NCBI GenBank assembly: GCA_947649645.1
Contig: CANSSP010000009.1
Span: forward strand, 1 to 64,000
Length of the DNA stretch: 64,000 nucleotides
Direction of reading: 5' to 3'
DNA from: an uncultured Roseburia sp.
GTDB taxonomy: Bacteria > Bacillota > Clostridia > Lachnospirales > Lachnospiraceae
The position numbers and the translations under genes are program-made. Positions 6,778 through 24,248 of the stretch are shown here, in pieces. The notes beneath the pieces were generated by a model. It was not told the origin of the DNA. It saw only the letters and a program-made list of their open reading frames with translations, and did no database searches. Within the stretch, counting starts at the first letter, position 1, and the number at the start of each line of letters is the position of its first letter.

Positions 6778-8307
6778 ATGTATGAAATGCTGCACAAGAG
6801 TGTGGACGACAGACACAAACGTGTCAGAGAGACGGCAAAGAAAAACAACCGGACCGGTATACCGGAACGCACAAAAGCGTATTTTGAGGATTTGTCCGGC
6901 ATGTCGTTTGATGATGTCAGAGTGCACTATGCGTCGCCGAAACCGGCTGGTTTCGGCGCGCTTGCCTATACGCAGGGAAACGACGTTTACATAGGCCCGG
7001 GACAGGAAAAACATCTGGGCCATGAGCTTTTTCATGTGGTGCAGCAGAAGCAGGGGCGTGTGCCGCCAACGGGCGAGATCGGCGGTACTCCTGTCAATAC
7101 GGATTCCGCGCTTGAGCGGGAGGCGGACCGGGCTGGCAGTCTGGCGGAGAGGAACGAACGGACTGTTTCCCGCCCGGCGCCGGCCGGCGCGGGACATGGC
7201 GGCCGGCCGGTGATACAGGGCAGGTTTCCCAGCGTAAAGATAAAGAGGAGTATTCAGAGTGCAGGCCAGGTCAGCGGACATCATATTTTTTCGCAGGCTG
7301 ATCTGGGAAGGCTGAGCGAGGCGGCACTGCGCAAAAAAAGGAGTGGCACCAGGAAAATGGAGTGGCCCGGTCTGTACGCGTTTTGTGAAGAATATTGTGA
7401 ATGCGAGGGCGGGATAGAAAATCTGGGATTCAATATTGTCGCTGGTCCGGGCAGATATATCAATAATCCCGGAGATCGGTTTGATCCGCAGACGCAGACG
7501 GCGGACATGGACGAAGGCGATGTGGAATATCTGGGTATGACGGAAGAACAGGCGGAACAGTTCGGCATGGAGAAGCGGGAGCTGACGTATGTGTCGGAGT
7601 GCATGAAAGCTGCCCATGATAAGTGTAAAGATGCAGATTATGAAAAATGGAAAGATTCGGACTGGGAAGAGATTCTGGATTCGTTTCGCAGCGCGGAAGA
7701 GGAGGCCGGGAGAGGCCCTGAGAATGTGCTTTTGCCGTGTGACGAATGGGCTGAAGAGCAGGACAGAAGTGGCAGAGATACGTATTACAGGAAGCGGCAG
7801 GGATACTTTATGAGCCGGGCGGCGTATGACGGAGTAAATAATGTTTTTTCTGTCGGCGCACAGAAAAGAAAGTACACAGATCTGGAGAATCTGGAGGTTG
7901 TGGACGGACAGAAGGAAATAACCGACGAAAGCGGAGGAACGATCCAGGTGCAGTATTCCGTTTTTCTGAAACATATTCTCGAGCGCCACAGCTTTCTCTG
8001 GTGCAGGGGAGAATTTACAGGGATCAATATTTTCTTTCCTCTGAGCATGGACGAAGATGCGATCAGAGACTGGTGTATGGCGAAGGCAGAAGCGCATATT
8101 GAAAAGGTGATCTGCCCGGCCGCAGATTCCGGTGAACTGGATTTCAGTCAGAGTGGTGTTTATGACGATGTATTCCTGATATGCAGTATTGGGTACGATG
8201 AGCCGATGAAAGTTACATTTGAGACAATGAGCATGGAGTCCGGGGGGATACAGGTAACGCAGAAGGCGTTAAAGGAAGCGTGGGATGTGTATGAAGATCA
8301 GCAATGA
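6778..8307 (+). CDS. DUF4157-domain protein with toxin-like C-terminal region
   Basis: A 509-residue protein with no signal peptide or membrane segment, ATG start behind GGAGGGGG. Residues about 30-125 are a DUF4157 domain: MSFDDVRVHY, the metalloprotease-like HELFH (82-86) and LEREAD (112-117). DUF4157 is a known marker of proteins associated with extracellular contractile injection systems and of polymorphic toxins. The middle region has GHHIF (167-171) and GFNIVAGPGRYINNPGDRFDP, arranged somewhat like GHH/AHH nucleases. A segment at about 390-450 has HILERHSF (399-406), the style of His motif seen in EndoU/BECR-type RNase toxins. Both toxin readings are weak resemblances. No injection-system genes or immunity gene lie nearby; the next gene is glycolytic. 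An inactive or stand-alone protein is possible. Confidence 0.6.
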   Translation: MYEMLHKSVDDRHKRVRETAKKNNRTGIPERTKAYFEDLSGMSFDDVRVHYASPKPAGFGALAYTQGNDVYIGPGQEKHLGHELFHVVQQKQGRVPPTGEIGGTPVNTDSALEREADRAGSLAERNERTVSRPAPAGAGHGGRPVIQGRFPSVKIKRSIQSAGQVSGHHIFSQADLGRLSEAALRKKRSGTRKMEWPGLYAFCEEYCECEGGIENLGFNIVAGPGRYINNPGDRFDPQTQTADMDEGDVEYLGMTEEQAEQFGMEKRELTYVSECMKAAHDKCKDADYEKWKDSDWEEILDSFRSAEEEAGRGPENVLLPCDEWAEEQDRSGRDTYYRKRQGYFMSRAAYDGVNNVFSVGAQKRKYTDLENLEVVDGQKEITDESGGTIQVQYSVFLKHILERHSFLWCRGEFTGINIFFPLSMDEDAIRDWCMAKAEAHIEKVICPAADSGELDFSQSGVYDDVFLICSIGYDEPMKVTFETMSMESGGIQVTQKALKEAWDVYEDQQ

Positions 8308-9824: not shown

Positions 9825-11645
9825 ATGAAAGAGAAAACAGTAAATGAGATGCAGAAGACGAGAGGGATTCACAGTCTGACGTTTATGCTGATCCTGACGA
9901 TCTGCGTCATGGTTTCCATTCCCACAGTCGGCCTGGCGTGTCTGGGTGTTTACTATCTGCGCCAGTCGATGGCTGAGTCGGTTGAGTCGTATGAAGAGTC
10001 CATGAGAGACGGCTATTCGATGGAAATCAAATCCCAGGTTCAGGGAGCACTGTCCGTGATTCAGAGTTTCTATGACAGGAGTCAGAGCGGCGAGATAACA
10101 GAAGAAGAAGCTAAGAAAATGGCGGCGGAGGCTGTCCGGGCCATGCGTTACAGGGATGATGCATCGGGGTATATCTGGATTGACGGGGAAGATTATATCC
10201 TGGTCATGCATCCGATCCTGACAGAGCAGGAGGGCAGCAACCGGTATGACCTGACGGATCAGAACGGCGTCAAAGTCACGCAGAGCGTTGTATCTGCGGC
10301 AAAGGGCGGAGGCGGATACAATGAATTTTACTTTACAAAATCAGACGGTGTGACGGTTGCGCCCAAGGTAGCCTATGCGCAGATGTTTGAACCCTGGGGC
10401 TGGGCGGTTGCGACCGGAAACTATGTAGATGAGATGAATGAAAAGATCGAGAGCAGAAAAGTCTCGATCGAGAACGATTTTTCGAAAATGCTGATGTTTT
10501 ACAGTGTTGCAGCGGTTGTGATGCTGGTTCTGGCACTGATTATATCCACGTTGATCGGGCTGAAGATTACAGGGGGCATTAAGCTGGTGGAGGCAAATCT
10601 CCGTCAGGCGGCGATGGGCGACTTGAGTTTTACCGTGAATCCCGCGCTGATGAGGCGGAGCGATGAGATCGGCGCAATGGCACGTTCTCTGGAAAACGTC
10701 CGCCAGTCCCTTGCGGGCATGCTCGGCAGTGTGCTTCACACCGGCGAGGCTCTGAATCAGAGCAGCGAAAAATTCAGCGAGAAATTCGGGCACATTTCAG
10801 ACAGCATTCGTAACACCAATCAGGCGATTGAAGATCTTGCGCTGGGAGCGACTAACCAGGCAAACGAGACCGAGACAGTGAATGCGAAGATTGTGGAGCT
10901 GGGAGAGGTCATCGAAATCGAAGAGAACGGCGTACATCGGCTGGAGAAAGCCGTATCCGCCATGGCAGAACATTCGGCGGGTGCCGCTGCGTGCATAAAA
11001 GAGCTTGATCATATTACAAAGACGACGATTGAGACCATCGATATCGTTTCCACACAGACGAATAAAAACAATGATTCGGCTGCCGATATCAATAAGACGA
11101 TTGAAATCATCAAAGGTCTGGCTTCCCAGACCAATCTGCTCTCTCTGAATGCCAGCATAGAGGCGGCCAGAGCGGGGGAAGCGGGCAGAGGATTTGCCGT
11201 TGTGGCAGAAGAGATCAGAAATCTTTCCGAGGAATCCTCCGGCAATGCCCAGGAGATTGAGGGAATTGTAAAAGAGCTGGTGAACAATGTGGAGGTTTCA
11301 GTCAGTAAGATGCAGGAAGTGACACGCAATGTACAGGAACAGCAGCGATGCCTGGATAAGACCAGGGAAGCATTCGGGTATTTAAAGAATGAGGTTGCCC
11401 TGGTGGAGGAAGTTACGAAAGAAATCGGCGGTCAGACCCAGATTTTAAATTCTCTCAAGCAGATCGTCACAGATTCCGTCAATAGTCTGGCGAGTGTGGT
11501 GGAAGAAAATGCGGCGTCCACGGAAGAGACAAGTGCCAGCATGATGCTTCTTTCCCAGACAATCGGCGAGTGCTCTTCGGATACGCAGGGACTGGTAGAG
11601 CTGAGCCGGCGGCAGAATGAGCAGGCAAGTAAATTTCAGTTGTAA
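9825..11645 (+). CDS. Methyl-accepting chemotaxis protein with Cache domain
   Basis: A 606-residue chemoreceptor. TM1 (about 18-40) and TM2 (about 223-246) enclose a periplasm-side Cache domain, with the sCache/dCache_2 signature [12 protein letters not shown] followed by VMHP and, later, [15 protein letters not shown]. This subfamily often binds small organic acids, but the ligand cannot be read here. A HAMP domain (about 247-300) leads into the cytoplasmic signalling coiled coil, with the hairpin tip [20 protein letters not shown] and [21 protein letters not shown] start behind AAGGCGGGG. No che or flagellar genes are in the window. The 153-base gap upstream shows no clear promoter. Confidence 0.95.
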
Positions 11646-11658
11646 AGTGAAAAAAGAA

Positions 11659-11692
11659 GGTCTCTGTCATGTTATCATGGCAGGGCCTTTTT
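11659..11692 (+). terminator. Terminator after the chemoreceptor gene
   Basis: GGTCTCTGTCATG (11659-11671) pairs with CATGGCAGGGCC (11676-11687), including G-U pairs, around a TTAT loop, followed by TTTTT. It isolates the chemoreceptor from the operon that follows. Confidence 0.85.
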
Positions 11693-11848
11693 GTCTGGTA
11701 ATGGCGAAAACTGTGTCAGGGGATTCACGGGAAAGTATCTGTCTTTCCCATGAAACAAACGTCCTTCAGACAGGAGCACATTGTGTCGGGGACAGCAGGA
11801 AAATCAGATTACAGCAGAAGTTAAATTCCGGAAAAGCGACAAAGCAGA

Positions 11849-11877
11849 TTGTCCTTCCGATATATATCGTGTATAAT
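11849..11877 (+). promoter_or_regulatory. Promoter of the six-gene accessory operon
   Basis: -35 TTGTCC (11849-11854), 17-bp spacer, perfect -10 TATAAT (11872-11877). Transcription would begin near 11884, about 68 bases before the GTG start of the DUF2971 gene. No further promoter of this quality is seen before 21779, so the six genes to 21719 probably depend on it. Confidence 0.7.
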
Positions 11878-11951
11878 GATTGTTGTCGATAAAAGGGATA
11901 ATTTGTCATATCTGGAGTGCTGAGTTATGCCCGGAAGGAGGGACGGATGCT

Positions 11952-14429
11952 GTGGAGTTTCTGAATGAGAAAAGAGTTTTAAGAAACGGAAAACCGATAG
12001 AGACAGATGATGCGTTACTGGAGGAACAAATCCGGTTTGTTGAGCAGAAGATGGAAGCGTTAAAGGAAAGATGTGTCAGGCTGTATGCACATCACTACTA
12101 TGAGCGGAAAATGGATCATTATGACAAAAATATGAGGGAGGCGGAACGTCTCTGGTCCGATATCCGTTGTTGCAGATGGAGTGAACATACACAGATTCTG
12201 AATCTGTTTCAGGCAAAGGCGGATTGCATGTTCGGAAGTGTTTTTGTGGGAAAGCAGGATTATGACGAGGCGTTGTCTTACCTGGCCGAAGGAAAAGACC
12301 GGATAGAAAAGGACACGCTGCAATATCTTATACCGGAATATTATGTCAGAGCGGCGATTGAAATGGCAAAATGCTATATAGAAAAACACAGCCCGGCCAG
12401 TGTTCTTGACGATTGTCTGAAGAAAGCGGAAGAGGTGCTTACGGCGCAAAAACAGGAGATCTGTGCAAATTATGAGGCGTTTTATTACGATAAATTGTCA
12501 TTGGAACTGAAGTTTCAGAGGCTTTATGCCGTGATGGACAAATATACATTTGAACAGGAGGGAAGTGCCGGGAAAGCCTGGAAGATTCTTGAGGACGTCA
12601 TAAAACAGTATGAACAGCTTCCTGTATCCGCCAGTTTTCATACGGACTGTTATTTTTCTTACACTGACTGGAAAAGGAAGCAGGATGTTTCACTGCGGAC
12701 GACAAAGGGAGAATTTTTCAAAAATCTGTATTTTGCTGTCGGAGAAGGGATAAGGCTGGTAAAAAAGCAGAGTACGGCGAATCTTCCTCCCATTGTCGCC
12801 GGCCTGTGGGAGAATGTGAAGCAGGAAGCCTTTCTGGACCGCAAGGGGTGCGGTGCCGGAGAAGCGGGGATATGTCAGCTTCCGGCAGCTGACTGGGATA
12901 AGACAGAGAAAAAAGACTGGAGCGAAGAAGAACTGCGGAAACTGCAGAGATATTTTCTTGAGCTGACATTTTCTGTTTTTGCGCAGACCATAAAAGAATA
13001 TCCTGCAAATACGATCTGTCTGGACGATCTTGCGGCGCTGCTTTATGATTATAAGGACGGAGATAAAACAGATCAGAAAAAGCAATTTCTGCTTTATCTG
13101 ATTGAGAAATATCTGAGCAGAGACTACCAGAAAGAAACCGTCGAACAGTCGATAGAAGCGATCCTGGACAGAGTACTGGAAATTGAGAGAACAAACATGT
13201 TTGCCTTAAGCATCAGGGCGGAGATGGCAATGACCGATCCTGTCTCGGAAAGGATTGACGATTACCCGGCTCTGCGGCAGTATTCGTTAAAAAAGTGGTT
13301 TTCCAGCATGCTCAAAAGCGGTGTTCCCACCGGGCCGTTCCAGGAGATTGAGATCGCACTGCTTCAGCTATACCGATATGTGACCTGGTTTATGAACCGG
13401 GCGATCATCGACTGGAAGAAAGAGAAATGGGAGCATCTGGAAGTAGGACATTATACCAGAATGGCTGTGCTTCCTAAGCTGTACAATAAAAATCAGGATA
13501 CAAGGCTCAGGCTTCACAATGTGCATCACCTGAATGATCCTCTTGAGGGCGTGCTTCTGATCAACCGGCTGAGGGAAGCGGTTCCGGTGGAAGCGGATTC
13601 GCTGATTCAGACCCTGTGGGACAAATACAATTCGGACGAGGGCGGCGCGGTGCGCAATATGGTATATATGGGCAGTTTTACCAGCCGCCTGGATCATCTG
13701 AACATGTGGGACCGGTATGGAGACCGCCAGAAAGGGGTTGCGCTTTGTTTTGACGGTAAAGAATATTTTGACAAGGAGGCAAAGATATCTTTTGCGAAAA
13801 TGTCTACGAGCGGAAGTTATGGACGTTATAAGCTGGAAGATATCAGGTATCCGCTCTATATGGTTCTCTATCTGCCCGAGGAGAACAGAGGAGGGCTGGA
13901 GAAAGCAGAAGAGTATGCAAGTCACAGAAAAGCTGCTGCGAAGGCGGGGAATGATAAAAAAGAGGAAAGCTGGTGGGGGATGCAGGCGGATCTGATCCGT
14001 GATCTGATCCGCCTGGAAAAAAAGATCAGAGAATGTCTGGAAAAGATGCAGAAGGTTCTTAGGGAGATAGAAGAGGACGGCCGCGGGACAGAAGCGGAAT
14101 GCAGGATGTGCGAAAGGCTTAAGGATGAACTCTGCCATGCGATCATGGTGATACTTGACCTGGTCCGGTTTCTGATCAAAAGCGATAAATACCGGGATGA
14201 ACGCGAATTTCGTGTGATTCAGTATTCGGATGACCCGGAATGCGAAGGGGAAGGGACGGAGGTACCAAGGCTGTATATCCCGATTGAAAAAGAGCTGATC
14301 TACAAAAGAGTCTGTTTTGGGCCTCTTGTCAAGGATTTTGAGTCAAAGGCGGCTTATGTCCTGAATATCAAGAGAAATGGTGCAGATGTGGAAGTGCAGA
14401 AATCCGCCATCTCATTTAAAGAAGGATGA
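11952..14429 (+). CDS. Large helical-repeat protein with C-terminal DUF2971 domain
   Basis: About 825 residues. The frame opens upstream, but the GTG at 11952 follows GGAAGGAGGG at a normal distance. Residues 1-470 are mostly helical and charged, TPR-like in feel (paired helices around YDEALSYLAEGKDRIEKD), without a catalytic motif I recognise. The C-terminal part matches DUF2971: GHYTRM (H500, Y501), LNDPLEG, SFTSRLDHLNMWDRYG (S575, W586), GVALCFDG, REFRVIQY (E752) and a final KRVCFGP. The H-Y / S-F-T / E order recalls ADP-ribosyltransferase-type folds, but that is inference. Function unknown; DUF2971 proteins often sit in defence or accessory loci. It leads an operon whose next gene starts 13 bases downstream. 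It looks slightly more AT-rich than the genes behind it. Confidence 0.6.
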   Translation: MEFLNEKRVLRNGKPIETDDALLEEQIRFVEQKMEALKERCVRLYAHHYYERKMDHYDKNMREAERLWSDIRCCRWSEHTQILNLFQAKADCMFGSVFVGKQDYDEALSYLAEGKDRIEKDTLQYLIPEYYVRAAIEMAKCYIEKHSPASVLDDCLKKAEEVLTAQKQEICANYEAFYYDKLSLELKFQRLYAVMDKYTFEQEGSAGKAWKILEDVIKQYEQLPVSASFHTDCYFSYTDWKRKQDVSLRTTKGEFFKNLYFAVGEGIRLVKKQSTANLPPIVAGLWENVKQEAFLDRKGCGAGEAGICQLPAADWDKTEKKDWSEEELRKLQRYFLELTFSVFAQTIKEYPANTICLDDLAALLYDYKDGDKTDQKKQFLLYLIEKYLSRDYQKETVEQSIEAILDRVLEIERTNMFALSIRAEMAMTDPVSERIDDYPALRQYSLKKWFSSMLKSGVPTGPFQEIEIALLQLYRYVTWFMNRAIIDWKKEKWEHLEVGHYTRMAVLPKLYNKNQDTRLRLHNVHHLNDPLEGVLLINRLREAVPVEADSLIQTLWDKYNSDEGGAVRNMVYMGSFTSRLDHLNMWDRYGDRQKGVALCFDGKEYFDKEAKISFAKMSTSGSYGRYKLEDIRYPLYMVLYLPEENRGGLEKAEEYASHRKAAAKAGNDKKEESWWGMQADLIRDLIRLEKKIRECLEKMQKVLREIEEDGRGTEAECRMCERLKDELCHAIMVILDLVRFLIKSDKYRDEREFRVIQYSDDPECEGEGTEVPRLYIPIEKELIYKRVCFGPLVKDFESKAAYVLNIKRNGADVEVQKSAISFKEG

Positions 14430-14442
14430 AGAGGAGGCCTGG

Positions 14443-15162
14443 ATGCGGGAAGGAAATAAAATATTAATCACGGGGAGCACACACGGCATCGGAAAAGCTG
14501 CGGCGGAAAAGTTTCTCAGAGCAGGCTGGGAGGTATATGGCTGCGGAAGCAACCGCGATGATAAAAGAGGTCCGAAGATGGAAATGGACTATCCGCTGTT
14601 TCATTTTCAGTATGCGGATATTTCCGTCGAAGAGGAAGTGAGGACGCTCTTTGACTGGTGCAGCGAAGTGAATGCGGCTTTTAACAACGCCGGGACAGGT
14701 TGTGCCCCGGCGCCGGCGCACCGCATGGATTCTGGTGCGGCAAGGCGGATTCTGGAAGTGAATCTGCTCGGAACAGCGCTTTGCATGAAATACGAGTGTG
14801 CGCGGATGCTGCAGAAGGGCGGTGTGATCGTAAATAATTCGTCTGTGGCTGCGTTTCGGGCAGATACCGGGGCAGACCCTGTTTATGCCGCGGCGAAAGC
14901 GGGGATTCTGCGCCTTGCGGCGGAGGCGGCTGTCAGACCGGAGTACAGAGGCCGGATTCGTTTTTTTACCGTCATCCCCGGATGGATTGAAACGCGCATG
15001 ACGGCAGTGGATGACAAGAGTGAATGGGAGAAAAAGCTGCCCGGTGGGCGCGCGGGTACGCCGCAGGAGGTGGCGGAGCTGGTTTATCGGGTGATAACAG
15101 AACAGGACTGTTTTGATTCCGGGCAGGAATTTCACGTCAACGGAGGAGGGATTCTGGTGTGA
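14443..15162 (+). CDS. Short-chain dehydrogenase/reductase
   Basis: A 239-residue NAD(P)-dependent SDR. The frame extends 22 codons upstream, but the ATG at 14443 follows GAAGAGGAGG and begins just before the Rossmann strand. Signature elements are intact: ITGSTHGIG (cofactor loop), NNAG, the serine of VNNSSVAAF, and YAAAKAG (catalytic Y and K). A C-terminal FHVNGG segment is typical of classical SDRs. It overlaps the next gene by four bases (GTGA), so the two are translationally coupled. The substrate is unknown; in this context a sugar or polyol oxidation is plausible. Confidence 0.85.
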   Translation: MREGNKILITGSTHGIGKAAAEKFLRAGWEVYGCGSNRDDKRGPKMEMDYPLFHFQYADISVEEEVRTLFDWCSEVNAAFNNAGTGCAPAPAHRMDSGAARRILEVNLLGTALCMKYECARMLQKGGVIVNNSSVAAFRADTGADPVYAAAKAGILRLAAEAAVRPEYRGRIRFFTVIPGWIETRMTAVDDKSEWEKKLPGGRAGTPQEVAELVYRVITEQDCFDSGQEFHVNGGGILV

Positions 15163-17735
15163 GCGAAAGAAGAGCAGACAGGCAAAAACGAGTCAGCGGC
15201 GTCCTTATGGCATTAAGCTGTCTGCCGGGGGCTTATGGCATCGGAGATCTGGGAAAGGAAGCCAGGTGCGCGGCAGACTGGATGAAACGGGCCGGATTTA
15301 CACAGTGGTCGCTTCTTCCTCTGAATCCGACCAGCTATGGGGACAGTCCGTATCAGAGTCCCAGTGCATTTGCCGGAAGTATCAACTACATCTCGCCGGA
15401 GCTTCTGGGAGAGGACGGGCTGCTGGAGCCGGAGGAATTAAAACAGGCTGTTTCGGAGACGGACGGCAGGGTGGATTACGGCGAGCTGTTTGTGACGCGG
15501 CCGAAGCTTCTGCGCTGTGCTTTCCGGCATTTTACGGAGCAGGGAGGCCGTCAGCGGGCAGATTATCTGAAATTCAGCCGGGAAAATGAGGACTGGCTGA
15601 ATGATTATGCGGCCTTTATGGCGATTAAGGAAAAGATGGACTATCGTCCCTGGCAGCAGTGGCCCGAGGCGCTGGCTCACCGGAAAGAGCCGGAATATAC
15701 CCGGTACTTAATGCAGCGGAAAGAGGATATAACGTTCTGGAAATTTACCCAGTATCTTTTTTTCAGCCAGTGGATGCGGCTTAAGGAGTATGTCAACGCA
15801 CAGGGAATCGGACTGATCGGCGATATGCCTTTTTATGTCGCGCATGACAGCGCCGATGTCTGGAGCCACAGAGAGCTGTTCGCCGTGAGCCGGAAGACTG
15901 GAAGAACAGTGATGTGGGCCGGGGTTCCCGCAGACTGTTTTTCGGGCCGCGACCGCAACTGGGGAAATCCGGTCTATGCGTGGGAAGGCCATGAGGCGGA
16001 AAATTACCGGTGGTTCAGAAGGCGGATACAGGTCAGCGGGACGATGTATGACGGACTGCGGATCGATCATGTGATCGCGGCAAGACGCTATTTCGGGATC
16101 CGGGACGGGGAGAAAACAGGGGCGTGGTATGACGGTCCGGACCTAAACGGGAATCAGTTTACCCAGGCAATCCAGGAGGAGGCGAAACAGGCCGGACTGT
16201 CTGTGATTGCGGAAGATCTGGGGGAGATTCCGCCGGGCTTAAGAGAGCGGATGCATGAGATCGGATGGCCGGGGATGCGTGTCTTACAATTTGCTTTTAC
16301 GGGTGCATACGGGCCTAAAAGCAATCACCTTCCGTTTTACCACGATAAGGAGATGGTGGTCTATACCGGAACACACGACCACCCGACGCTGAAAACATTT
16401 CTGGAAAAGAAAACAGACGCAGAGCTGCAGTATATGAAATGGTGGACCGGGGAGCACGCGCGCGAGGCACTCAGATGGGCGCTGATTGAGGAGGCGTATA
16501 AGTCGGTGGCCAGTCAGGTGATTCTTCCGGTCCAGGACATACTGGGGTATGGGGATGAGGCCCGGCTGGTCTTTACGGAGGAACCGGAGCGCTCCTGGAA
16601 GTGGAGACTGAAAAGTCTGTCTGCGTTCTCGGAAGAAGCGGCCCGCAGGATGAAAAAAACGGCAGTCCTTACGGGAAGGTATGACGATACAGAAGACGCG
16701 CCGGAAAGCACGGCAAAGGACCGGACTGTCATACTGGTCACGGGCGCTTCCGGTTTTATCGGGACGAATCTGACCGGATGGCTTTTAAAAGAAGGGTATG
16801 CCGTGATCGCAGTGGACACGGAAAGGCCGCAGATTTCCTATGAGGGGTACCGGCAGAGCACGGGCATCGGAACGGATGTCTGTGCGTTTGATCTTCTGAC
16901 GGTAAACGGAGATATCGGGGATGAAAAGCTTCTGGACGGGATTTTCCGGTATGAGATCGGATATGTAATCCATCTGGCTGCGATTTCGACAATCCAGCTT
17001 GGGGCTGTCAGCTATGAGAAAACGATGCGCGTGAATGTGGAGGGTACGCGGGGGCTACTTCGGGCGGTGGAGAAAGCGGGCGGTGTGAAAGGATTTGTCT
17101 ATGCGTCGACCGACAAGGTTTACGGAGAGATGAAGGCGCAGGCGTATACGGAGGAGATGCCGCTGCAACCATCTGTTTCCCCGTATGATCTTTCAAAAGC
17201 ACAGGCGGACGAACTGGTGCGAAGGTGGTCGAAAGAGCGCGGAGGGCACGGGATTGTACTTCGTTTCTGCAATATTTACGGGAAATACGACCGGAAAGCG
17301 ACACGTATTGTTCCCGCAACGATGCAGGCTCTGCTGAAAAACCAGGGTTGTGTGCTTCGGATGTTCCGCGATGAAAAAGGACATGTCCGCAATTTCAGGC
17401 GGGATTTTCTGTATGTGGATGATCTGTGCGGGGCGATCTGTGACATATTAAAGAAACTGGAAACGTGGAATCGGGAAAAGGCAGACGCGATGTGGGGGGA
17501 GGCATTTAATCTCGGAACAAAGCAGTCCTGCCCCATGGATGAGGTGATTTATAAGATGCAGATGCTGACCGGCATCCATACGCTTCCGCGGATAGAACTG
17601 ACGGAAGCGGGAGGAGAGGTCATGCAGCAATGTATGGATTATTCCAGGGCGCGGAATGTTTTTGGGTTTGTGCCGCAGACATCTCTTGATGAGGGACTTG
17701 CGGCCGTTGCGGAATGGTGGAAAGGAAATCTATGA
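15159..17735 (+). CDS. Fusion: GH77 4-alpha-glucanotransferase and NAD-dependent sugar epimerase
   Basis: An unbroken 858-residue frame joining two enzymes. Residues about 10-490 are a GH77 amylomaltase-like domain with all three catalytic acids in place: D303 (LRIDH), E352 (IAEDLG) and D407 (THDH). These lie about ten residues later than in the 500-residue Thermus enzyme, so the domain is full length. The usual FRG after RIDH is replaced by VIAARRYFGI. A charged linker (about 490-522) leads to an extended SDR epimerase/dehydratase: TGASGFIG (528-535), YASTDKVYGE and the catalytic Y676-K680 (YDLSK), then RFCNIYG. GTG start behind CGGAGGAGGG. It overlaps the SDR gene and the next gene by four bases each. 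I know of no standard protein with this pairing. Confidence 0.88.
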   Translation: MSERRADRQKRVSGVLMALSCLPGAYGIGDLGKEARCAADWMKRAGFTQWSLLPLNPTSYGDSPYQSPSAFAGSINYISPELLGEDGLLEPEELKQAVSETDGRVDYGELFVTRPKLLRCAFRHFTEQGGRQRADYLKFSRENEDWLNDYAAFMAIKEKMDYRPWQQWPEALAHRKEPEYTRYLMQRKEDITFWKFTQYLFFSQWMRLKEYVNAQGIGLIGDMPFYVAHDSADVWSHRELFAVSRKTGRTVMWAGVPADCFSGRDRNWGNPVYAWEGHEAENYRWFRRRIQVSGTMYDGLRIDHVIAARRYFGIRDGEKTGAWYDGPDLNGNQFTQAIQEEAKQAGLSVIAEDLGEIPPGLRERMHEIGWPGMRVLQFAFTGAYGPKSNHLPFYHDKEMVVYTGTHDHPTLKTFLEKKTDAELQYMKWWTGEHAREALRWALIEEAYKSVASQVILPVQDILGYGDEARLVFTEEPERSWKWRLKSLSAFSEEAARRMKKTAVLTGRYDDTEDAPESTAKDRTVILVTGASGFIGTNLTGWLLKEGYAVIAVDTERPQISYEGYRQSTGIGTDVCAFDLLTVNGDIGDEKLLDGIFRYEIGYVIHLAAISTIQLGAVSYEKTMRVNVEGTRGLLRAVEKAGGVKGFVYASTDKVYGEMKAQAYTEEMPLQPSVSPYDLSKAQADELVRRWSKERGGHGIVLRFCNIYGKYDRKATRIVPATMQALLKNQGCVLRMFRDEKGHVRNFRRDFLYVDDLCGAICDILKKLETWNREKADAMWGEAFNLGTKQSCPMDEVIYKMQMLTGIHTLPRIELTEAGGEVMQQCMDYSRARNVFGFVPQTSLDEGLAAVAEWWKGNL

Positions 17736-18928
17736 TCAGTAAAGTGGTAAAACGATTGTTCGATTATATAGAAGAGGGACTGCCACAGAAAACGGCGCCG
17801 CTGCGCACCTTAAACGCTGTTGGCAGTTATCCGCTGGCCTACCGGACGTTTGGCGGACAGACGCGTGGAAACGGTGATCTGGACGATGCGGTGATGGAGA
17901 GGGCATTTGGCAGTCACTATCTGCTGACGATGCTTTGTTCCGGCGCCGTGATCCGGCGGATTTTGTACCGGGAACCGGAATCATGCCACAGTCTCTATTG
18001 CGACGGAATGACGCTTCGCTTTCTCGACCGCCATGGTCTGGCGGAGCATGGCGTATGGGACCGGCTGGACCATGCGGCGCTGGATGAAAATATTACGATG
18101 GAAAATGTCGACCACCGCATTTACTATTCCGCAGCCAAACCGTTTGCGCTGCTTAAAGAAGGGGAAATCGCGGGAGAAAGCGGGATTCCGGTCCTGTTTG
18201 TGGACGCCGATCTTATTTTAAAAAAACGGCATGATGTGCTCCTGCGGCATCCTGAAACAATACGGGCTGCATACGGGCATCTGGAAGCGGTCGGGACGCC
18301 CTGCTATCCGGACTTTGCGGGACTTCATTTTCCGGATGGATATCGGCTGCCGCCGTACCGCACGGATCTTCCGGCCGTCAACACCTGTCTGATGTACTTT
18401 CGCGACCTGGAGCTGATGGCGGAGTGGAGCTGTTTTTTTAAAGATCTTTTCCTGGACAACTGGATTGGGACAAAGCTGGATGACATCACAATTTCAAGGC
18501 AGCTTCTGGGCATCGACCAGCGCACGTTTCCGATGGTTGCGGACAGTCATGGATACTGGGAGAACGGGCAGGTGGAAGCGTTTCTTGATCTTGTCTGGGA
18601 TCCGCCGTATTTTCGCCACAGCAGAACCGGGGAGAGCAGGGAGTGGCATTATTACACGCTGGAACATCACCCGGAACATGCGGACTGGCTGCAGGATATC
18701 ACACATACCTGGATAAACAAGCGGAATATCGAGCGTGATATTTCGTACCGGAATTACCAGGGCTGCATGATGCTGGAAATGATCCTGGAACTGGAGCCGG
18801 GCATGGAACCGTATCTGACTTCGTTTGAGAGTCTGAAACCGTATTTTGATCTGAGAAAACAGTACGGGACGATGGAAGCCATGCTTTTATCCGGCGCGGT
18901 GAGGGACCGGCTGGACAAGGAATGCTGA
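17732..18928 (+). CDS. Glycosyltransferase-like protein (DUF6734 type)
   Basis: About 398 residues. I prefer the ATG at 17732, which overlaps the upstream stop as ATGA behind GGAAAGGAAA, over the ATG at 17714. The protein shows the layout of DUF6734-type glycosyltransferase-like proteins: an LCSG...YCDG...FLDRHGL segment, then PVLFVDADLILKK with a DxD-like metal/sugar-nucleotide motif (about 155-165), and a later conserved NTCLMYF. No membrane segment is visible. By context it could use a sugar supplied by the fused epimerase. The family match is from recalled pattern and is moderate; the donor and acceptor are unknown. Confidence 0.55.
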   Translation: MISKVVKRLFDYIEEGLPQKTAPLRTLNAVGSYPLAYRTFGGQTRGNGDLDDAVMERAFGSHYLLTMLCSGAVIRRILYREPESCHSLYCDGMTLRFLDRHGLAEHGVWDRLDHAALDENITMENVDHRIYYSAAKPFALLKEGEIAGESGIPVLFVDADLILKKRHDVLLRHPETIRAAYGHLEAVGTPCYPDFAGLHFPDGYRLPPYRTDLPAVNTCLMYFRDLELMAEWSCFFKDLFLDNWIGTKLDDITISRQLLGIDQRTFPMVADSHGYWENGQVEAFLDLVWDPPYFRHSRTGESREWHYYTLEHHPEHADWLQDITHTWINKRNIERDISYRNYQGCMMLEMILELEPGMEPYLTSFESLKPYFDLRKQYGTMEAMLLSGAVRDRLDKEC

Positions 18929-18950
18929 GACAGAAGACGGGAGGTAGGAG

Positions 18951-20237
18951 ATGCCGCGGGAAACGCAAAATGAAAACAGCCGGCTGCTGGAGGAACTGGG
19001 CAGATATCTGCCCGCGGGCTGTATCAGAGCGAAAGACCCTGTCCCGGTAAGCGGGAGTGGAAGTTTTTATATCGACGCGCAGGGGAAAGAATACCTGGAT
19101 TTTTCTTCCGGTATTTTTACCAATTCGTTCGGCCACGGGTGTGAGCGTCTGAACCGGGCGGGATATGAACAGGCGGGGCGGCTTGCCAATATCCACGGCA
19201 GGCATTGCGTGGCGGAGCTTACGTTTTACCGCCGGCTGTCTGCGTATCTTCCGGCGAAAGATTACAAGGCCATTCCATACAACGACGGCGGGTATACGAT
19301 TGACCGTGGATTGTCGGATGTGATTAATCACTATGGAAAGCAGCGTATCGGGATTGCGGCGTACCGGAACGGGTTTCACGGAAAAACGCAGGCGGTAAAG
19401 CTTCTGATCAACGAGACCCGGAAGGCGGCGCTCTACGACAATTTCCAGATCGATTTTCCGGACTGCTACCGTTGCCCATGGAAAAAAGAGAGGGCATCCT
19501 GCGACATGGAGTGTGAAAAAGAGGCGTGCAGAAAGTTGCGGGAAAAAGAAGCCAGGGCGCTCATATTTGAGCCGGTGCAGGGGGCCGGGATTTATGTTCC
19601 GCCCCCGGGCTATTGGAAGGCGATGGAAAAATTCTGTAAAGAACAGGGGATTCTTCTGTTTGCCGATGAGGTGCTGACCGGAGGCGGACGGACGGGAGAG
19701 TATCTTGCCTGTACGCATTTCGGTATTGTGCCCGATCTGATTGCACTCACAAAAGGGCTTGCCAACGGAAAGCCGCTTTCCGTGCTGCTGGAGCGTGAGT
19801 ATCTCACAAAAAACAAATATGCGTCGAGGCCGATGGAGCGCGCGTCTACGTTCGCCGCACATCCGGAGGCGCTGGCGGTTGCCGGGGAACTGCTTTTGAT
19901 GCTTAAGGAGGGAGATGTTCTTTCGCATGTAAAACGGTGCGGAAAACTGCTCGCGGAGGGGCTTGCGGAGCTGCCGGAACGCTTTTTACAGGTCGGTGAC
20001 GCAAGGAGCTTTGGATGTATGGCTGCGGTTGAGTTTGTGCGGGATAAGACGTCAAAAGAGCCGGATCCTGCATTTTCCATGCGCGTCTTTGACCGGTGCA
20101 GGGAAAACGGTCTGGAGACGATCGGAGGAGGCCATATTCTCCGCCTGGCGCCGCCGCTTAATATCACAAAAGCCGATCTGCTGCGGGGACTTGCCATTCT
20201 TGCGAAAAGTATCGCAGAAATACAGCGGGAGGGATGA
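18951..20237 (+). CDS. Class III PLP-dependent aminotransferase
   Basis: A 428-residue fold-type I, class III aminotransferase, related to the 4-aminobutyrate/acetylornithine/glutamate-semialdehyde group. ATG behind GGGAGGTAGGAG. Motifs: LDFSSGIFTNSFGHG, the FADEVLTGGGRTGEYLA aspartate loop that holds the PLP ring, and K268 in LTKGLANGKPLS as the Schiff-base lysine. A Cys-rich insert (PDCYRCPWKKERASCDMEC) lies before EPVQGAGIY; similar inserts occur in some bacterial GABA-type transaminases. It is 22 bases after the glycosyltransferase gene and 3 bases before the radical SAM gene. In this operon it may aminate a keto-sugar or other carbonyl intermediate; this is inference. Confidence 0.85.
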   Translation: MPRETQNENSRLLEELGRYLPAGCIRAKDPVPVSGSGSFYIDAQGKEYLDFSSGIFTNSFGHGCERLNRAGYEQAGRLANIHGRHCVAELTFYRRLSAYLPAKDYKAIPYNDGGYTIDRGLSDVINHYGKQRIGIAAYRNGFHGKTQAVKLLINETRKAALYDNFQIDFPDCYRCPWKKERASCDMECEKEACRKLREKEARALIFEPVQGAGIYVPPPGYWKAMEKFCKEQGILLFADEVLTGGGRTGEYLACTHFGIVPDLIALTKGLANGKPLSVLLEREYLTKNKYASRPMERASTFAAHPEALAVAGELLLMLKEGDVLSHVKRCGKLLAEGLAELPERFLQVGDARSFGCMAAVEFVRDKTSKEPDPAFSMRVFDRCRENGLETIGGGHILRLAPPLNITKADLLRGLAILAKSIAEIQREG

Positions 20238-20240
20238 AGA

Positions 20241-21719
20241 TTGAACAGGTACTATTGTATGCGTTTTTATGTCACTTACCGGTGCAATTCCAGATGCCGC
20301 TACTGTAATGTCTGGCAGGAGGAGTGTTTTCGCGATGTAAAAGAGCTTGCACCAGAGGAGGCGGAGGAACTGATAAGGCAATGCCATGCGGCAGGGGTCC
20401 GTTATATCGACTTTACCGGAGGCGAACCGACGCTGTATCCACATCTGGCCAGGCTGGTGCGGTATGCCAGACGTCTGGGGATCAAAACGGAAGTCACGAC
20501 AAATGCGATCTTAAACGATCACGGACGGATGCGGGAGATCGCCGGGTGTGTCGATAAATGGAATCTCTCTCTGGATACCTTAAACCCTGACACTTACCGG
20601 AAGATCAGAGGCGTGGACTGTTTTGATGCGGTGATGGAGACATTGCAGGAAACAGTTAAAGTCCGGCGCCCGAAAATCATGACGGTAGTCTCCCGTGAGA
20701 ACAGTCAGGAGCTGGACGGGCTGATTTTGTTTGCGCAGCGCAGCGGGGCCGAGATTTACTTAAATCCGGTTTTTTCTTACGCCGGCACAAAGCAGGCGGA
20801 AGATACGGCGGAATTTTCACGGCAGATTCTTGCGCGGATTTATCGGCCCTATACGGTTGTCATGCTGCATTTCCTGGAATTTTACCGGGACGGCGCCTGC
20901 AGGCCTCCCTGCTCGGCCAATGTGCGGACGCTGACTTTTGCGCCTGACGGGGCGCTTATGCTTCCCTGTTACCATGCCGTGCAGGAAGTGGCCGCGTGGA
21001 GCGGAAACCTTAAAAAAATGCTTTCGGGCGGGACGTTTCAGTCGTATGCCGCGCAGACGAAGCGTGCCTGCTGCAGGAACTGTAATGTGGTTCCCTATTT
21101 CGGAATCTCATTTAATTACTGGCTGGATTCCTGCTTTCTGATACAGTCTTACTCGGAAAAGTTAAATCACTTAAAACGTGATTTTTTAAACGGGATTACC
21201 GGATGGCAGCAGGAGGAAGAGCGGCTCCACCTTCATCTGCGGGAGCTTCTTTCGATTGTGCGCTCCCTGCATATTGAAAGGGAGCCGGGCGAAGAATGGC
21301 TCTATCGGGCGGATTGGACCGGGGCGGGGTATGAGACAAAAGTATACCGGGAAGCCCTGGATGAGGCTGTTTATTCAGGAGAACGGAAGGCACAGGACTG
21401 CTGGCAGCTTACGCTGGTTCCACATTATGATTTTGACCGGATATATGAGAGCGTTTACCGGAAGCTTTACTGGGGCATAAAGACAGGGGCTTACGGGGGG
21501 GAGGCTGTCCGGCTCTTAAATGAGGCGGCGGAATTTCAGCTCCGGTGGTGGAAATGGTATGTGGGCAAATATATGAATGTCACGGTGAAGTGTTTCCCGG
21601 ATAAGGAGGCAGGGTGGATTTCTGCATATTTACAGCGGATCGCTGCATGGGGAGGCGCGCAGGGAGACGGGGAGATTGTACAGACAGCCGAAGAACTTTC
21701 TTCCATGCTGACGCCATGA
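20241..21719 (+). CDS. Radical SAM enzyme with auxiliary cysteine cluster
   Basis: A 492-residue radical SAM protein with a TTG start seven bases after GGGAGGGA, three bases after the aminotransferase stop. The SAM-cluster motif is C15-x3-C19-x2-C22, followed by DFTGGEPTLYPHL. A second cysteine group (CRPPCSAN, MLPCYH, ACCRNC) at about 215-290 resembles a SPASM or twitch-type auxiliary cluster, found in peptide-modifying enzymes and in dehydrogenases of the BtrN kind. The C-terminal 180 residues are rich in Trp/Tyr and have no motif I know. No small precursor-peptide gene is visible nearby, so a small-molecule or sugar substrate is at least as likely as a peptide. Confidence 0.8.
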   Translation: MNRYYCMRFYVTYRCNSRCRYCNVWQEECFRDVKELAPEEAEELIRQCHAAGVRYIDFTGGEPTLYPHLARLVRYARRLGIKTEVTTNAILNDHGRMREIAGCVDKWNLSLDTLNPDTYRKIRGVDCFDAVMETLQETVKVRRPKIMTVVSRENSQELDGLILFAQRSGAEIYLNPVFSYAGTKQAEDTAEFSRQILARIYRPYTVVMLHFLEFYRDGACRPPCSANVRTLTFAPDGALMLPCYHAVQEVAAWSGNLKKMLSGGTFQSYAAQTKRACCRNCNVVPYFGISFNYWLDSCFLIQSYSEKLNHLKRDFLNGITGWQQEEERLHLHLRELLSIVRSLHIEREPGEEWLYRADWTGAGYETKVYREALDEAVYSGERKAQDCWQLTLVPHYDFDRIYESVYRKLYWGIKTGAYGGEAVRLLNEAAEFQLRWWKWYVGKYMNVTVKCFPDKEAGWISAYLQRIAAWGGAQGDGEIVQTAEELSSMLTP

Positions 21720-21778
21720 AACGCGTAAAATGAGTGCGGCGGAAAAGGCACGGGATCTGACTGTGAGCGGATTTCTGA

Positions 21779-21806
21779 TTGTAAATTCCGGATGGTCTGT
21801 TATAAT
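21779..21806 (+). promoter_or_regulatory. Promoter before the helicase gene
   Basis: -35 TTGTAA (21779-21784), 16-bp spacer, perfect -10 TATAAT (21801-21806), 60 bases before the helicase start. It marks the boundary between the accessory operon and the next group. Confidence 0.6.
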
Positions 21807-21866
21807 AGCAGTAGGATTTGTGCCGGTGCCACAAAATCAATCAGATATGGTAAAAGAGTAGGGATT

Positions 21867-24248
21867 ATGGAGCAAAAAGAAACGATCCGGATTTCAGTCC
21901 GGAATCTGGTGGAGTTCATTCTGCGAGAAGGGGACATTGATAATCGTTACGGAAAAATGGCTCCGCCGCAGGCGATGCAGGAGGGAAGCCGGATCCATCG
22001 GAAAATCCAGAAGCGTATGGGGGCGGATTATCACGCGGAGGTGCCGCTGAAGATCGCCGTTGAGCAGGAGCGTTATGTTCTGGTGGTGGAAGGCCGGGCG
22101 GACGGAATCGTGACGGCTGCGGGAAAAGATGTGATGATCGACGAGATCAAGGGCGTTTACCGCAGGCTGGATATGCTGGAGGGGCCGGTCGGCGTTCACC
22201 GGGCGCAGGCGATGTGCTATGCCTGGATTTATGCCTCGCAGCATGTTCTGGACGAAATCGACGTGCAGCTGACGTACTGTAATCTGGACACGGAGGAAAT
22301 CCGCACATTCAAGGAGCATTTTTCATTTCCCGCGCTGGCGGAATGGGCTGAGGCGCTGGTCGAAGAATACCGGAAATGGGCGGATTTTCAGTTTTTCTGG
22401 CGGGAGTGCAGACAGGCGTCCATCAGGGCTCTCACGTTTCCGTACGAGTACCGCAGAGGACAGAAGGAGCTGGCCGTAGATGTCTACCGCACGATCAGCC
22501 GGAAGAAAATATTATTTGTACAGGCTCCGACCGGCGTCGGGAAGACGATTTCCACGGTGTTTCCTGCGGTGAAGGCGGTCGGCGAAGGACTTCTGGACCG
22601 GATTTTTTATCTGACGGCAAAGACGATCACAGGGACAGTGGCGCGGGAAGCGTTTGCGCTGCTGCAGAAACAGGGATACCGGGCGAAGATCGTTTTGATT
22701 ACGGCAAAGGAGAAGCTCTGCCGCTGTGAGGTCATGGACTGTAATCCGGTGCATTGTCCCTATGCACAAGGCCATTTCGACCGGGTGAACGATGCGGTGT
22801 ATGATCTGCTGATGAAGGAGGATCTGTTTACGCGGGAAGTGTTCCTGAAGCAGGCGGAAAAATATCGGGTGTGCCCGTTTGAGCTCTGCCTGGATACGGC
22901 GTCCTGGGCGGATGCGATTATCTGCGATTACAATTATGTGTTTGATCCGAATGTATATCTGAAGCGTTTTTTTGCGGAGGGGGCGAAGGGCGACTTTGTT
23001 TTTCTCGTGGACGAGGCGCACAATCTGGTGGAGCGCAGCCGGGAAATGTACAGTGCGCAGCTGTACAAGGAAGATTTCCTTGCGATGAAAAAAATTGTAA
23101 AAAAATACGATGGAAAGCTGGCAGCCGATTTTGAAAAATGCAACCGGATTCTGCTCGGATATAAGCGGGAATGTGAGACATATGTGATCTACGATACCAT
23201 CGGAAATCTGGTGTACGCGCTTGCGCGGCTGGGAGAGAATCTGGACGAATTTCTGCAGAAAGCGGCGGAATTTCCGGAACGGCGGGAAGTCACGGATTTT
23301 TATTTCCGGCTCAGGGATTTCAGGAATGTCTGTGATCTGCTTGACGAACATTATGTGATTTATTCGGAACACGAGGAGGATGGGCGGTTTAAATTGAAGC
23401 TTTACTGTGTGGATCCCTCCAGGAATCTGCAGGAGCGCATCGACAAGGGAAAGGCGGCTGTCTTTTTCTCGGCCACGCTTCTTCCGATTCATTATTATAA
23501 AAGCCTGCTTTCGACCCGGACTGACAATTATGCCGTATACGCGCAGAGTGCGTTTTCCGAGGAGCAGCGGCTTCTTTTGCTGGCAAATGACGTCAGCAGC
23601 CGTTACACAAGGAGGAATAGTGCGGAGTACGGGCGGATGGCGGAGTATATCTTAGGGACGGCGCTTGCAAAAAAAGGAAATTATATGGCCTTTTTCCCTT
23701 CTTATAAGATGATGGAGCAGGTCCATGAAGCATTCCGGACGCTTGCGGGAGCAGAGCGGACGGAGAGCATACTGCAGCAGCCGGGGATGCAGGAGGAGGA
23801 AAGAGAATCTTTTCTCGCCGCATTTTCGGCGGAAGCATCCTTAGGCAGGGAAAAATCGTTCGTGGCATTCTGTGTCCTTGGCGGGATATTCGGAGAGGGA
23901 ATCGACCTTAAGAACGAGCAGCTGATCGGAACGGTCATTGCAGGGACCGGGCTTCCGCAGATCGGCAACGAACGCGAGATTCTGAAGGATTACTATGACA
24001 GGCGTTCGGGAGAGGGATTTGATTTTGCCTACCGGTATCCGGGGATGAATAAGGTGCTGCAGGCGGCGGGACGTGTTATCCGGACGGCGGAGGATGTGGG
24101 CGTGATCGTGCTTCTGGACGATCGTTTTTTGCAGAGCGACTACCAGAGACTGTTTCCGCGAGAATGGGAGAAACGCGCGGTGTGCAGAATCGGAACGTTT
24201 CGGGGGTATCTGCAGGAATTCTGGGAGGAAAAATATGACAGAGACTGA
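21867..24248 (+). CDS. DinG/XPD-type DNA helicase with N-terminal PD-(D/E)XK nuclease
   Basis: A 793-residue protein. The frame opens at 21792, but the ATG at 21867 gives a natural N-terminus. Residues about 1-170 form a Cas4/RecB-like nuclease domain: D79 (GRADG), E93-x-K95 (DEIKG) and a following QAMCYA. An SF2 XPD/DinG-like helicase follows, with Walker A APTGVGKT (K226), four candidate Fe-S cysteines between CRCEVMDC and CPFELC, DEAH in VDEAHNLVE, and late motifs GEGIDL and QAAGRVIR. It probably combines 5'-3' unwinding with strand cleavage in DNA repair. It overlaps the next gene by 14 bases. Confidence 0.88.
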   Translation: MEQKETIRISVRNLVEFILREGDIDNRYGKMAPPQAMQEGSRIHRKIQKRMGADYHAEVPLKIAVEQERYVLVVEGRADGIVTAAGKDVMIDEIKGVYRRLDMLEGPVGVHRAQAMCYAWIYASQHVLDEIDVQLTYCNLDTEEIRTFKEHFSFPALAEWAEALVEEYRKWADFQFFWRECRQASIRALTFPYEYRRGQKELAVDVYRTISRKKILFVQAPTGVGKTISTVFPAVKAVGEGLLDRIFYLTAKTITGTVAREAFALLQKQGYRAKIVLITAKEKLCRCEVMDCNPVHCPYAQGHFDRVNDAVYDLLMKEDLFTREVFLKQAEKYRVCPFELCLDTASWADAIICDYNYVFDPNVYLKRFFAEGAKGDFVFLVDEAHNLVERSREMYSAQLYKEDFLAMKKIVKKYDGKLAADFEKCNRILLGYKRECETYVIYDTIGNLVYALARLGENLDEFLQKAAEFPERREVTDFYFRLRDFRNVCDLLDEHYVIYSEHEEDGRFKLKLYCVDPSRNLQERIDKGKAAVFFSATLLPIHYYKSLLSTRTDNYAVYAQSAFSEEQRLLLLANDVSSRYTRRNSAEYGRMAEYILGTALAKKGNYMAFFPSYKMMEQVHEAFRTLAGAERTESILQQPGMQEEERESFLAAFSAEASLGREKSFVAFCVLGGIFGEGIDLKNEQLIGTVIAGTGLPQIGNEREILKDYYDRRSGEGFDFAYRYPGMNKVLQAAGRVIRTAEDVGVIVLLDDRFLQSDYQRLFPREWEKRAVCRIGTFRGYLQEFWEEKYDRD

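Follow-up and report, generated by a model that had tools for sequence, protein, structure and literature searches.

A conserved six-gene cassette of an uncultured Roseburia that may place an amino-sugar on maltodextrin

What could six adjacent genes of an uncultured Roseburia sp., encoding sugar-nucleotide, alpha-glucan, amino-transfer and radical SAM enzymes beside a DUF2971 protein, accomplish together? They lie on the same (+) strand at positions 11952-21719 of a 64,000-nucleotide stretch (contig CANSSP010000009.1, positions 1 to 64,000; hereafter the window), with gaps of 13, -4, -4, 22 and 3 bases. These genes, gaps and product families had been described in an original prediction made from the sequence alone; the coordinates and gaps were reproduced, and Pfam and NCBIfam scans confirmed the DUF2971, short-chain dehydrogenase/reductase (SDR), GH77 plus epimerase, class III aminotransferase and radical SAM assignments. 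The members of the cassette are as follows.

11952..14429, + strand: gene 1, 825-aa (amino acid) protein with a DUF2971 domain at the C-terminus, start codon GTG
14443..15162, + strand: gene 2, SDR, 239 aa
15159-17735, + strand: gene 3 as a whole, GH77-epimerase fusion
15159..16700, + strand: gene 3, N-terminal domain, GH77 4-alpha-glucanotransferase of a cassette-specific group, catalytic motifs intact
16701..17735, + strand: gene 3, C-terminal domain of the nucleoside diphosphate (NDP)-sugar 4,6-dehydratase/epimerase type (STDK, YxxxK)
17732..18928, + strand: gene 4, divergent DUF6734 relative with DxD at residues 158-160, putative GT-A-type glycosyltransferase
18951..20237, + strand: gene 5, class III aminotransferase that groups with the aminotransferase of an acarbose-type cluster
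20241..21719, + strand: gene 6, radical SAM protein, start codon TTG, with CxxxCxxC, C224/C243/C278/C281 and an unusual C-terminal region

The gene set and its order are conserved and under purifying selection, the aminotransferase and the radical SAM protein are kin to proteins of one acarbose-type cluster, and no cyclase is encoded in the cassette. As to the product and the roles of the glycosyltransferase and the DUF2971 protein, we infer, and would give it about an even chance, that the cassette builds an amino-deoxysugar on a maltodextrin, with a BtrN-like radical SAM enzyme doing the tailoring and the cyclitol arm of acarbose-type pathways absent.

Conservation of the cassette in other genomes

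Genome contigs were scanned with gene 4 as the marker; 22 stretches matched the pattern and three were confirmed, on a Roseburia contig of a metagenome-assembled genome (MAG; L005), an unclassified MAG contig (L006) and a Lachnospiraceae contig (L007). At 79-90% identity, L005 has all five enzyme genes, GH77 and epimerase being fused there as well, together with the end only of the DUF2971 gene and the same adjoining helicase. The set is complete and in the same order in L006, between different flanks; its enzymes are 57-72% identical to those of the window and its DUF2971 protein 43-51%, the DUF2971 gene being split over two overlapping frames. L007 has the SDR, GH77, epimerase and gene 4 in order up to the contig end, while genes for 199-aa and 327-aa proteins stand upstream in place of DUF2971. 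The fusion is confined to the window and L005, with GH77 and epimerase as two genes in L006 and L007; the window SDR is 67-68% identical to those of L006 and L007. Aminotransferase and radical SAM genes are present in three of the four cassettes, the fourth (L007) being truncated by the contig end. In the window, L005 and L006, the start of gene 4 shares 4 bases with the gene before it; in L007 a 1-base gap separates the two. Conservation of the gene order in relatives had been put forward as a check of the original prediction, and relatives that keep it do exist.

Between the window and L005, the ratio of nonsynonymous to synonymous substitution rates (dN/dS) is 0.08-0.19 for each cassette gene and 0.09 for the neighbouring helicase. 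At E <= 0.001, gene 4 has matches in two of 62 genomes of the genus (the own genome and that of L005), three of 200 of the family (the own genome and two weak matches), five of 392 of the order (the own genome, one strong match at 3.7e-118 and three weak ones) and one of 398 of the phylum (the own genome), the four samples overlapping. The cassette is, in other words, a rare conserved unit, patchily distributed and under purifying selection.

The strong match in the order sample (L012) is a gene 4 of 42% identity, with no other cassette genes in the 16.4 kb fetched around it. It adjoins a 362-aa gene whose product is 29% identical to the 327-aa protein of L007, and their family has matches in two of 295 order genomes (that of L012 and one weak match). 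A family without Pfam or NCBIfam match (L007:5677-6660 and L012:8058-9146) is found, that is, next to gene 4 or the cassette in two distant hosts. L012 also has, close to its solitary gene 4, a gene for a 161-aa protein that overlaps one for a Ser/Thr kinase with leucine-rich repeats (L012:13070-15155). The L006 cassette is followed immediately 3' by a macro-domain gene whose product looks hydrophobic over its long second half (L006:14143-15489) and immediately preceded by one for a large protein with many degenerate repeats (L006:1-3471).

Among 17 regions upstream of the helicase (2.5-9.2 kb each) from genus members, the helicase start was located in 16 and cassette genes in none at 1e-15; a clean empty site could not be defined, as the upstream neighbours of the window are absent from these regions too, except for weak chemotaxis-protein matches in two of them. 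Sequence scans of viral contigs found no relatives.

The aminotransferase, the radical SAM protein and a Streptomyces cluster

Acarbose is a diabetes drug that blocks starch digestion. The presence of a GH77 enzyme beside sugar-nucleotide and amino-transfer enzymes raised an analogy with its biosynthesis, which was proposed ahead of the plasmid match of the aminotransferase. According to excerpts of two papers, AcbA, AcbB and AcbV produce dTDP-4-amino-4,6-dideoxyglucose (PMC8234114), and AcbI attaches it to maltose (PMC9200736).

When gene 5 was searched against 72,556 plasmid records, Streptomyces sp. NBC_00467 NZ_CP107895.1 came at the top of the 1,874 with a match (38.3%, 2e-78), the next among the best eight of them being at 32.5% and 4e-48. 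In one direct comparison the Streptomyces enzyme reached 271 bits, and none of the 18 other sequences from outside the cassettes scored above 183. The tree of 28 class III aminotransferases (three from cassettes, one from the Streptomyces cluster, 16 from order genomes and eight plasmid sequences taken from the matches listed; midpoint rooting) puts the three cassette enzymes and the Streptomyces enzyme on one side of a branch with support 100/99; L007 is missing from it because the contig ends before the gene. The grouping was recovered in a tree of 26 rows, minus two long ones. Such a supported grouping with the enzyme of an acarbose-type cluster suggests that gene 5 may act on a 4-keto-6-deoxysugar.

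The same record ranks first of 369 for gene 6 (32.1% over 94%, 5e-69) and is the only one of them covered to at least 80%, the next listed being covered to 58% (3e-32). The two proteins align across the radical SAM core, the four further cysteines and much of the unusual C-terminal region. All seven Fe-S cysteines align; C15/C19/C22 (CxxxCxxC) and the twitch-like C224/C243/C278/C281 are invariant in three cassette sequences and the Streptomyces one. In the reverse search with the Streptomyces protein, no further plasmid record of the 270 was covered to 80%. The radical SAM profile has matches at 1e-20 in 13 of 392 order genomes, outside the own genome confined to the first 245 of 490 positions, and none of the 13 phage records that match gene 6 does so across 80% of the protein. 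A second, short match to the C-terminal region of gene 6 (31.5% over 92 aa) lies on the same Streptomyces plasmid immediately ahead of a transposase gene and looks like a remnant (L109:5860-6135).

In NZ_CP107895.1, the genes for the aminotransferase and the radical SAM protein are at most about 20 kb apart, and the latter is the last in a co-directional row. Sedoheptulose 7-phosphate cyclase, dTDP-glucose 4,6-dehydratase, glucose-1-phosphate thymidylyltransferase, an ABC transporter, a glycosyltransferase, a nucleotidyltransferase and malQ are annotated in this cluster, which we read as acarbose-type. The cassette resembles it in the grouping of the aminotransferase and in the near-full-length radical SAM relative (for this cluster only), and resembles both it and the acb and sct clusters, at family level, in having a GH77 and a 4,6-dehydratase-type enzyme. 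Unlike these clusters, the cassette is without a sedoheptulose cyclase, cyclitol kinase, nucleotidyltransferase, GT5-like AcbI/AcbS and transporter; its GH77 belongs to another group, and it has a DUF6734-like protein and an SDR instead. No GT5 match (AcbI/AcbS-like) was obtained for the six genes in the Pfam scan, and we found no open-licence paper pairing "radical SAM" with "acarbose".

As for BtrN of butirosin biosynthesis, excerpts of the literature describe four cysteines holding an auxiliary cluster in an enzyme that oxidises an alcohol (PMC9012708), the cluster accompanying alcohol oxidation (PMC9012708, PMC6231123). Gene 6 resembles it in CxxxCxxC and the four further conserved cysteines, which would fit one auxiliary cluster, and in standing alongside an aminotransferase, with which BtrN also acts. 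It differs in its long additional C-terminal region, and the cassette in lacking a 2-deoxy-scyllo-inosose synthase. Judging from its cysteines, gene 6 may encode a BtrN-like, twitch-type radical SAM enzyme.

GH77, gene 4 and a possible pathway

The N-terminal domain of gene 3 matches the GH77 profile at 454 bits (cut-off 25), and RIDH, EDLG and THD, with the catalytic Asp, Glu and Asp, are present in all four cassette GH77s. These are 57-85% alike among themselves and 36-39% to the housekeeping MalQs encoded in the own genome and in that of L006, from which they differ past the nucleophile, with HVIAxxR instead of HFRGF (the motif alignment disregards the MalQ row of genome G480). A separate full-length MalQ is encoded in the own genome and that of L006, and fragments of one in those of L005 and L007. 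These data bear on whether the cassette might comprise catabolic or storage genes (glycogen or maltodextrin, amino-acid metabolism) that are co-transcribed without a joint product. Most of the enzymes do singly resemble common families, and the GH77 is nearest to ordinary amylomaltases; nevertheless, we find this explanation very doubtful, as set and order are kept at 57-72% enzyme identity despite different flanks, purifying selection acts on the genes and a separate MalQ exists.

The dehydratase domain of gene 3 keeps GxxGxxG, Thr-Asp and YxxxK, while the usual Glu is replaced by Lys (STDK) in the three cassette sequences aligned. A lysine at this site is a feature of CDP-glucose 4,6-dehydratases, on which our paper search found nothing.

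For gene 4, neither Pfam nor NCBIfam gave a match, and no credible PDB-sequence match was obtained. Profile-profile comparison aligned it with DUF6734 (PF20508) over 262 columns (probability 97.9, E 3e-13), the DxD included; the Pfam DUF6734 model itself matches neither gene 4 of the window nor the L012 homologue. Three weak gene-4 relatives that were tested are DUF6734 proteins, than which gene 4 is longer by about 100 residues. We take it for a putative GT-A-type glycosyltransferase, distantly related to DUF6734; an open-licence literature search found no paper naming the latter, and one naming DUF2971.

A glycosyltransferase-like protein of this kind could also serve surface or protein glycosylation, putting an amino-sugar on a protein (perhaps DUF2971 or its L007 replacements) or on a surface glycan, with GH77 merely supplying glucose. 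A DxD protein together with NDP-sugar enzymes is typical of glycosylation loci, and the slot upstream of the cassette varies by host. But none of the six genes encodes a flippase, polymerase or ABC exporter, a dedicated GH77 is unexpected there, and the relatives of the aminotransferase and the radical SAM protein sit in a small-molecule oligosaccharide cluster; on balance we regard this alternative as unlikely.

A profile scan found neither a sugar-phosphate (sedoheptulose 7-phosphate) cyclase nor a 2-deoxy-scyllo-inosose synthase among the six genes, so neither acarbose nor a 2-deoxystreptamine-type aminocyclitol is to be expected from them. Both the aminocyclitol and the full acarbose pathways were rejected on these grounds. 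Of what had been proposed earlier, the amino-sugar or glucan theme gains from the aminotransferase and radical SAM relatives in one acarbose-type cluster, and the aminocyclitol route falls. As to the five genomes scanned with PF01761 (DHQ-synthase family), one strong gene each was found in the own genome, G480 and those of L006 and L007, and presumably it is AroB; the own genome has an additional partial match of 26 bits, just above the cut-off, and that of L005 (G252, 61% complete) one sub-cut-off match only. RmlA, the source of dTDP-glucose, is above cut-off in four of the five, including the own genome and those of L006 and L007, the exception being that of L005.

The proposed pathway could proceed as follows. 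The epimerase/dehydratase domain would dehydrate dTDP-glucose, supplied by RmlA encoded elsewhere in the genome, to a 4-keto-6-deoxysugar, which the aminotransferase, judging from its grouping, would aminate. The DUF6734-like protein might then move the sugar onto a malto-oligosaccharide, this being the weakest step, while the GH77 dedicated to the cassette, as opposed to the housekeeping MalQ, would provide or lengthen the malto-oligosaccharide. At some point in the sequence, the radical SAM enzyme with its BtrN-like four-Cys auxiliary site could oxidise a ring hydroxyl, and the SDR might adjust the result.

A number of observations weigh against this reading. The acarbose-type label of the Streptomyces cluster comes from annotated products and their order; nothing in the 49.8-kb Streptomyces stretch matches the SDR, gene 4 or DUF2971 at 1e-3, the best plasmid matches of the SDR among those listed lie outside the cluster, and gene 4 has no match in plasmid records. 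GH77 and dehydratase resemble their Streptomyces-cluster counterparts at family level only (28-29%; 28% over 417 aligned positions for GH77 and malQ), and the cassette GH77 is far nearer to ordinary amylomaltases. AcbQ is, in the excerpted part of its source, a putative amylomaltase (GH77) of acarbose clusters without which acarbose forms and which may modify acarbose (PMC9200736). Neither a transporter nor a nucleotidyltransferase is encoded within the cassette. The aminotransferase comparison included the relative from the Streptomyces cluster, AcbV itself standing outside it; the Streptomyces enzyme has a long branch and deviant composition, its position is flagged as unsure by the tree program, and it does not share the NDGG stretch conserved among the cassette enzymes. 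In the PDB, gene 5 comes nearest in sequence to a BioA-annotated enzyme, an amino-acid racemase and gamma-aminobutyric acid aminotransferases, and the 20 PDB sequence matches of gene 6 do not include BtrN. The structure that AlphaFold predicted for gene 4 was too poor to use (predicted local distance difference test 33) and was set aside. Finally, dS was not computable for three of the five genes tried between the window and L006, the other two giving dN/dS of 0.07 and 0.12.

A bolder proposal, which we consider possible but rather doubtful, is that some gut-type Lachnospiraceae make undescribed amino-sugar-bearing maltodextrins, i.e. cyclitol-free acarbose-type mimics whose assembly involves a radical SAM dehydrogenase together with a DUF6734-type transferase, and that these products block or read gut alpha-glucan metabolism. 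If the main reading, an amino-deoxysugar placed on a maltodextrin, is right, gut-type anaerobes have a compact means of putting an amino-sugar on starch-like oligosaccharides, akin to the acarbose pathway, and represent a testable source of new alpha-glucan mimics; a function would be assigned to a DUF6734-type protein, and a radical SAM enzyme would be tied to acarbose-type chemistry. With an aminotransferase and a radical SAM protein in common with the Streptomyces cluster, the idea lends itself to tests of one enzyme at a time.

The DUF2971 gene, control signals and a neighbouring gene

The DUF2971 domain of gene 1 matches its Pfam model at 30 bits, above the cut-off of 22. Homologues are found in L005 (end only) and L006, the latter alone with a sub-cut-off TPR match, and among plasmids in two Streptococcus plasmids only, at 23-25% identity. 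The 199-aa and 327-aa proteins of L007 were considered as cryptic DUF2971 relatives and rejected, similarity being nil; as for an ADP-ribosyltransferase fold of DUF2971, a PDB sequence search gave nothing credible. Since DUF2971 is replaced in L007, it is an associated and not a constant part of the cassette. Our guess is that the protein is a separate partner, possibly a sensor, a target or a means of self-protection.

Gene 1 matches the PADLOC candidate PDC-S31 (2.8e-8) and a phage family of unknown function (6e-13), which could point to a defence or conflict system whose enzymes make a small molecule that the DUF2971 protein senses or acts upon as effector. The patchy occurrence and the macro-domain gene adjoining the L006 cassette would suit such a system. 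We nonetheless judge it quite improbable: genes 2, 4 and 5 have no PADLOC matches (gene 3 was outside the scan), gene 6 matches viperin models solely over the radical SAM core, just as it matches many radical SAM families, and the L007 cassette is without DUF2971.

The listed open reading frame of gene 1 opens at TTG 11880; GTG 11952 was chosen as the start because the L006 homologue starts with MEFLNEKR and AAGGAGGG stands at 11935-11942. The following control signals are pattern matches.

11662..11685, + strand: terminator-like hairpin, 3' of the upstream chemotaxis gene (stop 11645)
11849..11877, + strand: sigma-70-like promoter, 10 of 12 matches, such sites being as frequent as in shuffles
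21779-21806: promoter-like site, 10 of 12 matches, TG preceding the second hexamer

A terminator ahead of the cassette promoter had been predicted, in agreement with the hairpin. The two predicted promoters, at 11849-11877 and 21779, both matched, but promoter-like sites in 10500-23000 are no commoner than chance (10 versus a shuffled mean of 10.1), and the operon structure thus rests on gene packing and conservation. A pattern search found no + strand terminator-like site between 21719 and the next gene. Elsewhere in the window, positions 6778-8307 encode a 509-aa protein that carries an eCIS core domain (PF13699, 1.6e-11); its gene is flanked by gcpE and one for a phosphofructokinase.

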